Source: Cellulomonas triticagri | GTDB lineage: Bacteria; Actinomycetota; Actinomycetes; Actinomycetales; Cellulomonadaceae | NCBI RefSeq assembly: GCF_003696205.1 | Contig: NZ_RFFI01000031.1 | Location: 1-36,564 of the forward strand | Reading direction: 5' to 3' | Length of the DNA: 36,564 nucleotides | Shown: in pieces, positions 1,975-3,084 of the stretch | Layout of the letters: each line of letters opens with the position of its first letter | Numbering within the stretch: the stretch's first letter is position 1 | Translations under genes and position numbers: made by a program | Notes under the pieces: generated by a model | What the model saw: the letters and a program-made list of their open reading frames with translations, nothing else | Told to the model about the DNA's origin: nothing | Database searches by the model: none

Positions 1975-2247
1975 TCAGGAGGCGAGGCGTTCGCCCGACC
2001 CGGCCGGCCTGCTGACCTCGGCCCACACGGCGTCCAGCGACAGCCCGAGGACGTCCGCGATGGCGGCGATGGTGGGGAACGCGGGCGTGGCGACGCGGCC
2101 GGACTCGATCTTGCGCAGCGTCTCGGGGGAGACGCCCGCGTCGAGGGCGGTGGTGAGCATCGAGCGGTCGCCGCGGGCGCGGCGGAGCAGGGCGCCGAGG
2201 CGCTGCCCGCGCTCGACCTCGTCGGGGGTGAGGGGCAGCCGGACCAT
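1975..2247 (-). CDS. Small XRE-family helix-turn-helix regulator
   Basis: This 90-residue protein is almost entirely one Cro/C1-type HTH domain. A helix carries the motif LGALLRRARGD, followed by MLTTALDAGVSPETLRKIESGRVATPAFPTIAAIADVLGLSLDAVWAE, the classic XRE recognition pattern including the KIESGR turn. It has no effector or sensor domain. The gene is divergent from a methionine aminopeptidase gene, with three 14-bp phased repeats between them, so it probably regulates itself and the neighbour. A TAGTAT -10 (positions 2260 to 2255 on the minus strand) sits about 7 nt before the ATG at 2247, which implies a leaderless or nearly leaderless mRNA. Confidence 0.88.
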   Translation of the reverse strand: MVRLPLTPDEVERGQRLGALLRRARGDRSMLTTALDAGVSPETLRKIESGRVATPAFPTIAAIADVLGLSLDAVWAEVSRPAGSGERLAS

Positions 2248-2253
2248 GCGTCC

Positions 2254-2295
2254 GATACTAATACCGGGATACTATGGCCGGGATAGTTATTGGCA
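2254..2295. promoter_or_regulatory. Three 14-bp phased direct repeats in the divergent XRE/map control region
   Basis: GATA-starting units begin at 2254, 2268 and 2282, exactly 14 bp apart: GATACTAATACCGG, GATACTATGGCCGG and GATAGTTATTGGCA. The repeats are AT-rich in a very GC-rich context. The first contains the TAGTAT -10 of the XRE gene on the minus strand, and the third contains TAGTTA, a possible -10 for the aminopeptidase gene. They are good candidates for operators bound by the XRE protein. Confidence 0.6.
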
Positions 2296-2313
2296 CGACG
2301 AGCGAGGCCCCTG

Positions 2314-3084
2314 ATGATCGAGATCCTGAACCCCACCGAGCTGCGGCGCGCGGAGGACTGCGGCGCCCTGGTCGGCACGATCCTGCACACCCTGAAGGGC
2401 CGCGCCGCCGCCGGGACGAACCTCCTGGAGATCGACGGGTGGGCCAAGGCGATGATCCTCGACGCGGGCGCCGAGTCCTGCTACGTCGACTACGCGCCGT
2501 CGTTCGGTCGCGGGCCGTTCGGGCACTACATCTGCACCTCGGTCAACGACGCCGTGCTGCACGGGCGCCCGCGCGACCAGGTGCTCGCCGACGGCGACCT
2601 GCTGACCCTGGACCTCGCGATCTCGCTCGGCGGGGTCGTGACGGACTCCGCGATCAGCTTCGTCGTGGGCGGCGCGGGGACCGCCGAGGACCGCGCGATG
2701 ATCGAGTCCACCGAGCGCGCGCTGGCCGCCGGGATCGAGCAGGCGCGTCCCGGCGCGCGGATCGGGGACATCTCGCACGCCGTGGGCACCGTGCTCACGG
2801 GGGACGGGTACCGGGTGAACACCGAGTTCGGCGGCCACGGCGTCGGCTCGACCATGCACCAGGACCCGCACATCGCGAACTCCGGCCGGCCGGGTCGCGG
2901 GTACACGCTCCGTCCCGGGCTGCTGCTGGCGATCGAGCCGTGGGTGATGGCCGACACCGACGAGCTCGTGACGGACGCCGACGGCTGGACCCTGCGCAGC
3001 GCGACCGGTGCCCGGACGGCCCACAGCGAGCACACGGTGGCGATCACCCCGGACGGGCCGAAGATCCTCACGCTCCCGGCCTGA
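2314..3084 (+). CDS. map: Type I methionine aminopeptidase (M24A)
   Basis: MetAP removes the initiator methionine from nascent proteins with a dinuclear metal centre. All ligands are visible in the 256-residue protein: Asp100 (LTLDLAI), Asp111 (TDSAISF), His175 (FGGHGVGS), Glu208 (LAIEPW) and Glu239 (SEHTVAI). His83 of the substrate pocket is in VLHGRP, where most MetAPs have HGIP or HGVP. The protein lacks the N-terminal extension or SH3-binding zinc motif of some actinobacterial MetAPs. An in-frame TTG at 2290 would start inside the third operator repeat, so the ATG at 2314, preceded by GAGCGAGG, is chosen. Genomes of this group usually carry another housekeeping map next to adk/infA, so this is probably an accessory copy under local XRE control (inference). 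Confidence 0.9.
   Translation: MIEILNPTELRRAEDCGALVGTILHTLKGRAAAGTNLLEIDGWAKAMILDAGAESCYVDYAPSFGRGPFGHYICTSVNDAVLHGRPRDQVLADGDLLTLDLAISLGGVVTDSAISFVVGGAGTAEDRAMIESTERALAAGIEQARPGARIGDISHAVGTVLTGDGYRVNTEFGGHGVGSTMHQDPHIANSGRPGRGYTLRPGLLLAIEPWVMADTDELVTDADGWTLRSATGARTAHSEHTVAITPDGPKILTLPA

Follow-up and report, generated by a model that had tools for sequence, protein, structure and literature searches.

N-terminal methionine removal is usually regarded as constitutive and essential. Two kinds of well-known systems provide a frame for the locus described here: the OR regions of lambda and 434, where several operators lie over two divergent, overlapping promoters, and the controller (C) proteins of restriction-modification systems, which are small stand-alone XRE proteins encoded beside an enzyme gene. 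On the side of the enzyme, the second methionyl aminopeptidase (MetAP) of Bacillus subtilis, YflG, is described as weakly expressed and, when assayed with test peptides, roughly two orders of magnitude more active, with YvoA as a slight repressor of its gene (PMC1266368). One MetAP gene of Collimonas is reported among the most induced in nutrient-depleted medium (log2 of 4.5 to 4.8), in a table that also holds zinc ABC transporter genes (PMC12542777). In the gene map of the sace_3599 region of Saccharopolyspora erythraea, one 10.5-kb fragment carries both an XRE regulator gene and a methionine aminopeptidase gene; hence, an XRE-MetAP pair has probably already been drawn in print, as annotation and, in the available portion of that paper, without comment (PMC7435583). 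A search of the open-licence literature returned no study of such a pair, which is not proof of its absence from print. The initial annotation of our locus called a dedicated regulator for a MetAP unusual; this fits the literature found, although a literature search cannot prove it.

The xre-map locus and its 14-bp units

The window, i.e., the whole stretch of DNA that was analyzed, has 36,564 bases (74.9% GC) and is one (C206) of the 280 contigs that make up a 4.39-Mb genome. It includes two divergent genes, xre and map, with start codons 66 bases apart and, between them, three 14-bp units at 2252 to 2293 with a GC content of 47.6%. The features of the locus are:

1975-2247, minus strand: xre (P0001), encoding a 90-aa XRE/Cro-type helix-turn-helix protein (Pfam HTH_31, 37.4 bits with a cut-off of 27; HTH_3, 33.6 bits with a cut-off of 23)
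2252-2265, minus strand: putative operator unit 1, CCGATACTAATACC, which reads GGTATTAGTATCGG on the minus strand; contains the predicted xre -10 box
2255-2260, minus strand: TAGTAT as the predicted -10 hexamer of xre, 7 nt from the start codon (ATG at 2247), making xre a putative leaderless gene
2266-2279, no strand: putative operator unit 2, GGGATACTATGGCC; missing or multiplied in some relatives
2270-2275, plus strand: alternative map -10 box TACTAT, in unit 2 (pattern TAnTAT)
2280-2293, plus strand: putative operator unit 3, GGGATAGTTATTGG, the best conserved unit; contains the likely map -10 box
2282-2287, plus strand: likely map -10 box GATAGT, in unit 3; TATAGT in many relatives
2304-2307, plus strand: likely map ribosome-binding site GAGG, read from the sequence, with purine-rich columns there in 93 homologues
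2314-3084, plus strand: map (P0002), encoding a 256-aa type I methionyl aminopeptidase, an accessory paralogue (TIGR00500, 210.8 bits with a cut-off of 171.35)

The repeats had been placed at 2254-2295 by the initial annotation. The array is indeed there, 2 bp away from that position, since the in-register units span 2252-2293, and unit 1 fits better as an inverted unit than as a direct one. Taken alone, the window's sequence says little about periodicity. With both strands counted, the window as a whole contains three copies of the motif GATANT (at 2254, 2268, and 2282), where shuffled sequences lead one to expect 3.34; hence, it is the clustering and the phase of the motif that are odd, not its number. 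When the first 48 bases of the intergenic region were shuffled by mononucleotides, 826 of 20,000 shuffles reached the observed lag-14 match at some lag between 6 and 24. When three successive 14-mers are scored, GC-rich places elsewhere reach 26, against 23 for the array in register and 25 for the best position just beside it. The 14-bp periodicity thus barely stands out in the window, where it is weak and mildly unusual.

Homologues also bear on the promoters. A TAnnnT motif ends 7 nt before the xre ATG in 70 of 101 homologues and 6 nt before it in a further 28, and a -10 box at such a distance is typical of leaderless genes in actinobacteria. Hence, xre is predicted to have a leaderless promoter with its -10 box in unit 1. 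For map, several two-unit loci (L042 and L044 among them) have TATAGT at 7 nt from the ATG, and the leader is longer in L048 and L059. The claim that the units hold the likely -10 boxes in both directions consequently stood for xre (98/101); for map, the box in unit 3 is likely, with an alternative in unit 2. A scan with the sigma-70 consensus found no -35/-10 pair for the -10 boxes of either gene. We infer that the two promoters overlap and could hardly be used simultaneously.

Conservation of the array in relatives

We pooled the 109 intergenic regions of 30 loci from the family and 79 loci from named genomes, leaving out the 24 loci of the phylum sample, and obtained 101 distinct regions. 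In the 98 that are long enough, the lag-14 match is 0.404, against 0.251 (SD, 0.006) in shuffled sequences, and is the highest of lags 1 to 30; the corresponding z of 24.8 is not a probability because the sequences are related. We regard the periodicity as real, since the homologues decide the matter where the window alone is weak. The three phased 14-bp units proposed between the divergent genes are therefore borne out, their phase being conserved in homologous intergenic regions. Lack of conserved spacing in orthologous loci was the result that had been named in advance as decisive against the array; the spacing turned out to be conserved, with 14 as the strongest lag.

The same comparison delimits the edges of the array. 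We aligned 93 of the 101 regions, selected by the presence of CCGG at both joints 14 bp apart (which omits eight regions and makes the eight CCGG joint columns invariant by construction). The information per column falls at either edge of the 42 bp, from 1.61 to 0.20 bits on the side of map and from 1.12 to 0.10 bits on that of xre. Moderate conservation outside the 42 bp is limited to one column by the xre start (0.78) and a purine-rich stretch before map (at most 0.81). The consensus of the array is CCGATTCTAGTACC GGGATAATATGGCC GGGATAGTTATTGG.

The array is legible in each of the 30 loci of the family, and 92 of the 101 regions have the three-unit form when steps between unit joints are counted. 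The step is the joint-to-joint distance, i.e., the length of the middle unit or units, and was judged by eye in regions with an additional joint due to a chance CCGG-like word. A number of units other than three was found in seven of the 101 regions: two units in L115, L129, and L136; four in L118, L152, and L025; and five in L026. The two middle units of L152 are identical. Since L136 has two units and the other Kribbella loci (L125 and L140) have three, and since L152 has four and the other Microbacterium loci (L135 and L151) have three, the number of units has changed more than once. Exceptions to the strict 14-bp rule are a 15-bp step in L013, a 13-bp step (one base short) in L025, and a degenerate middle unit in L113; in addition, unit 1 is 2 to 3 bp shorter in L022, L148, and L150.

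More distant arrangements were also found. Several relatives of family f6 (e.g., L042, L044, L045, and L051) have the two outer units only, back to back. Seven relatives of family f7 have 14-bp dyads with the arms GGTAT and ATACC, e.g., GGTATTTAAATACC, whose length suggests one dimer per unit. These loci (L052-L058) represent a third type of XRE-map pair, with dyads of the form GGTATnnnnATACC, two per intergenic region in five of the seven. The f7 dyads may possibly be a simpler, ancestral operator.

The putative regulator, its partner enzyme, and their distribution

Comparison across genomes also ties the XRE gene to the array and to map. XRE was detected at an E value of 1e-8 in 23 of the 396 genomes of an even phylum sample, the genome of the window included, and a divergent map adjoins xre in 21 of the 24 other loci of that sample. 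A divergent map adjoins xre in all 30 loci of the family (again with the window's) and, at a distance of 32 to 113 bp, in 79 of 80 loci from named genomes, which are the best 80 of 570 by score, a set in which XRE identity across orders is inflated. The MetAP lineage of P0002 is present in 60 of the 121 genomes of the family, 46 of which also have XRE (48 XRE-positive genomes minus two weak matches, which are other helix-turn-helix proteins without an adjoining MetAP); XRE without a MetAP of this lineage was found in none of the 121. Where the XRE is present, so are the units: the match to the unit is at least 11/14 in 122 of 130 XRE-linked loci, the eight exceptions being L040 and the seven f7 dyad loci (the 130 loci, like the 133 XRE proteins used below, include at least eight loci sampled twice). 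In the 14 loci of the family that have the MetAP without XRE, the best match within 150 bp is 7 to 10 of 14. Because these 14 genomes keep the MetAP without XRE or array, control by them appears dispensable. The two genes have separated in Micromonospora sp. ATCC 39149, with some 2 Mb between xre and map (L098 and L162); a full three-unit array is found at each, and these two arrays hold the only unmismatched unit sites of the genome. The xre gene of this strain now adjoins Fur- and peroxidase-family genes.

The genome of the window has one unmismatched unit site, at the xre-map locus, one site with two mismatches, and two with three. The initial proposal that the small XRE protein is tied to the adjoining map thus gained from both the conservation of the pair and the uniqueness of this site. 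We rejected the two-mismatch site, on contig C35, as a member of a regulon: it lies near an HPr gene, has no second unit by eye, and the reversed control pattern also gives two matches in this genome. In 10 other genomes, all 11 sites with zero or one mismatch sit at xre or map, and two mismatches occur at 16 further sites, with the reversed control giving 9. Since near-perfect unit sites lie at xre or map in the genomes scanned, the XRE looks like the regulator of a single switch, with weak extra sites being possible. Two XRE genes of the f6 type (L043 and L049) have no adjoining map; L049 retains about half of the array, and its map may therefore have been lost. A related XRE (49% identity; L060, 1498-1797) also lacks map; the gene divergent from it is DNA-methylase-like, and the space between the two holds a separate inverted repeat, GGGTGTAAC...TTACACCC.

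Both its helix-turn-helix domain, which scores above the cut-off, and its fold place the protein in the XRE/Cro-CI family. The AlphaFold model has five helices (mean pLDDT of 88.4) and no metal-binding or ligand domain, and residues 1 to 7 are extended, without secondary structure. C.BclI and C.AhdI are among its structural matches, as are the folds of the lambda and P22 repressors. An identification as a HipB-type antitoxin (TIGR03070) was discarded, given a score of 21.7 bits where 71.65 are required and a partner that is a MetAP and not a toxin. The arm has the form Met-Val-Arg-x-Pro. Val2, Arg3, and Pro5 are the same in all 53 proteins retrieved by whole-protein similarity and in all 80 further XRE proteins, the latter being weaker proof of invariance because they were found partly with the pattern MVRxPL itself. 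In the plain reading, this arm would contact DNA. Valine is a MetAP-permissive second residue. The closest structure is PDB 2OFY (TM of 0.80), a putative XRE-family regulator from Rhodococcus sp. that aligns over residues 1 to 79 (E value of 9.3e-30) and also begins with MVR. We found no function or operator for 2OFY in the literature; in the portion available of the one paper that uses it, it serves only in simulations, as a homodimer (PMC9861041).

The product of map is, by model score and intact predicted catalytic residues, a type I MetAP. Residues H83, D100, D111, H175, H182, E208, and E239, which we take to be the metal ligands and catalytic histidines, are identical in all 147 aligned relatives, 146 of which also retain a cysteine near the S1 pocket. 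Relative to the solved MetAP 3TB5, P0002 has a six-residue insertion (61-66) before the pocket cysteine. A PSF-type loop (PQF in L041) precedes this cysteine in the 19 accessory sequences compared (7 more were not extracted) and is absent from P0004, a separate MetAP of the same genome (contig C68) with the pocket sequence YRGFPKSLC. The initial annotation took map for a constitutive housekeeping gene, and this premise does not hold. A housekeeping MetAP should be present in every genome and evolve with the species, and P0002 does neither: it belongs to an accessory lineage (at least 71% identity to P0002) found in about half of the genomes of the family, next to P0004. The XRE-linked MetAPs of f6 and f7 (three each on the tree, f6 with a long-branch warning) lie outside the P0002 clade; hence, the XRE accompanies more than one MetAP lineage. 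A further accessory MetAP, P0003 (contig C1; L075/L166), starts 9 bp behind a TetR-type gene (TetR_C_33) on the same strand, and dedicated regulators of accessory MetAPs may therefore not be limited to XRE proteins. Another paralogue, in G104 (L077/L165), is divergent from a LacI-type regulator gene, and the same arrangement was seen by eye in G024 (L076).

The distribution of the pair differs from that of a vertically inherited gene. Identity of MetAPs to P0002 is 73 to 83% in six congeners and 72 to 80% in 13 genomes of other NCBI orders. The corresponding values for P0004 are 80 to 93% in six congeners and 65 to 74% in 10 genomes of other orders (23 genomes searched, three of which, including two of other orders, had no match at an E value of 1e-60). 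P0004 behaves like a vertical gene, because its identity falls with distance; that of P0002 stays flat. On the MetAP tree, the order labels change 24 times, for a minimum of 8 and a shuffled mean of 46.7, i.e., they are clustered, yet far from vertical on this poorly resolved tree, in which 16 of 91 inner branches are starred and one row (L156, a Rhodococcus bin mislabeled with a cyanobacterial order) adds one group. The XRE was found in 9 of 72,556 plasmid records, and all five plasmid loci that were read have a divergent map and the array; on L181 (NZ_CP108736.1), a linear, mobilizable Streptomyces plasmid of 255 kb, the pair is flanked by the gene of an IS3 transposase on one side and by a cluster of arsenic-resistance genes on the other. 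Horizontal transfer and loss are, from these comparisons, the most likely and most economical reading of the distribution.

We found no larger conserved cluster. An all-against-all comparison of open frames of at least 90 aa in the 80 named loci returned mainly xre, map, and antisense shadows; the widest other recurrence is an ABC-transporter-like frame in seven loci (in a count over 76 loci, which omits four of the 80 because of a shifted offset), one further frame is common to L115, L125, L129, and L140, and congeners share flanks. No inhibitor-related or biosynthetic, metal-transport, or restriction-modification gene recurs beside the pair in the named loci. The pair is thus probably a two-gene, horizontally moving cassette with one shared switch. 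Other vehicles and roles were considered and set aside. A tRNA-Ala (GGC) gene lies at 1647-1720 of the window, 250 bp from the 3' end of xre; insertion linked to tRNA genes was rejected, as a scan of 60 of the 80 named loci found a tRNA gene in just one, at a distance of over 3 kb. Phage cargo was rejected since the phage collection holds no relative of the XRE at an E value of 1e-8, and membership in a known antiphage defense was rejected since neither protein matches PADLOC-DB at an E value of 0.001.

A probable shared switch and its relation to known systems

Judging from its conservation and position, the array most likely serves as the operator for control of both map and the leaderless xre gene by the XRE. 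The explanation that we favor, and consider quite probable, is that the XRE represses both xre and a reserve MetAP through the 42-bp array; binding, the sign of control, the dimers, their cooperativity, the transfer, and the role of the enzyme are the parts of it that we infer. The XRE, probably as a dimer, would bind each 14-bp unit, such that three dimers would lie side by side, cover the -10 boxes of the two overlapping divergent promoters, and repress both genes. The 14-bp step would correspond to 1 1/3 helical turns and the three units to four turns (assuming 10.5 bp per turn), so abutting dimers could sit on different faces. The XRE would in this way set its own low level and keep the accessory MetAP off. 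Upon its release, the MetAP would be made as a reserve for conditions in which the usual removal of N-terminal methionine falls short; candidate triggers are a shortage of metal and a natural MetAP inhibitor. A bold extension, which we regard as improbable, is that the XRE directly senses the capacity for methionine removal through its own Met-Val-Arg N terminus. The arm would then grip DNA only once Met1 has been removed. Loss of MetAP activity would leave the methionine on newly made XRE, both promoters would be released, and the reserve enzyme would be produced; its activity would shut the switch again, in a closed loop where an enzyme processes its own repressor.

What the reserve is for could be understood more sharply. 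The accessory MetAP could be insensitive to a natural inhibitor and allow an inducible bypass of the inhibited target, the pair being a mobile resistance cassette, a sharper form of the favored explanation that we hold as a tentative possibility. It would account for the patchy distribution of the MetAP and for the XRE on nine plasmid records, once by ars genes, as well as for the six-residue insertion and the PSF/PQF-type loop before the pocket cysteine, a loop that P0004 lacks. The myxobacterial bengamide cluster, which carries a MetAP gene, offers a parallel, since its MetAPs have been proposed to be insensitive in the portions available of the two reports (PMC6163206, PMC9228497). Yet no biosynthetic neighbor recurs, and the model of the XRE has no ligand domain with which to sense a drug. 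The lack of a recurrent inhibitor gene cluster beside the pair and the unchanged S1-pocket cysteine are points against the favored explanation itself. Alternatively, the enzyme could use another metal or act on other proteins, with the XRE answering a starvation cue. The induced MetAP gene of Collimonas (PMC12542777) and the second MetAP of B. subtilis (PMC1266368) speak for such a role, although either may belong to another lineage than that of P0002. We find this reading doubtful, as metal-transport genes do not recur by the cassette and the lack of a metal-binding or ligand domain in the XRE model tells against it too.

Two further readings concern the switch itself. The XRE could repress itself and activate map, in a one-protein version of lambda PRM/PR. 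Activation is conceivable because no -35/-10 pair was found, map lacking a recognizable -35 box, and units 1 and 2 do lie upstream of the likely map -10 box in unit 3. It is nonetheless unlikely: the unit over that -10 box is the best conserved one, the sole upstream unit in two-unit arrays is that over the xre -10 box, and map is kept in 14 loci without XRE. The repeat could also be no operator but two AT-rich -10 regions face to face, with an XRE that does not bind 14-bp units. The presence of -10 boxes in the units and the weak periodicity of the window would be expected if this were so. We consider it very improbable, because conservation extends to the sequence between the -10 boxes, the number of units changes by 14-bp steps (with one 13-bp exception), and the array is kept at both of the separated loci and gone where xre is gone. 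Repression of both genes by the XRE thus remains our preferred reading.

An individually regulated MetAP across many actinobacterial orders would imply that cells meet conditions where methionine removal fails. A reporter built on the 42 bp could be a handle for finding the inhibitor or stress, and an array whose unit number varies by 14-bp steps could be a compact natural series for studies of abutting repressor sites. How, then, does the locus compare with described systems? It resembles lambda and 434 OR in having several units over two divergent promoters (here by sequence only) and a helix-turn-helix protein of the same fold class. It differs from them in having one regulator, units abutting at 14 bp, and an enzyme gene under control; a second, antagonistic repressor as in lambda OR was not found, since the 5-kb surroundings of the named loci show no other recurrent helix-turn-helix gene. 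The C proteins C.BclI and C.AhdI are likewise small XRE proteins of similar fold encoded by an enzyme gene, but no restriction-modification gene recurs by xre-map. In B. subtilis, map and yflG provide the same combination of a housekeeping MetAP and a weakly expressed second one with a possible weak repressor (PMC1266368). There, however, the regulator YvoA is of the GntR type and came to light through a site shared with nagAB, and the available part of that paper describes neither a tandem operator nor a two-gene cassette. The Collimonas MetAP is, as far as the source was available, an earlier example of an inducible MetAP, from another phylum (PMC12542777), and the bengamide cluster is, in the parts available, a known case of a MetAP tied to the production of an inhibitor (PMC6163206, PMC9228497). 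Second MetAPs and autoregulated XRE proteins with tandem operators are thus both known, and what appears to be new here is the attachment of such a switch to an unexpected enzyme.
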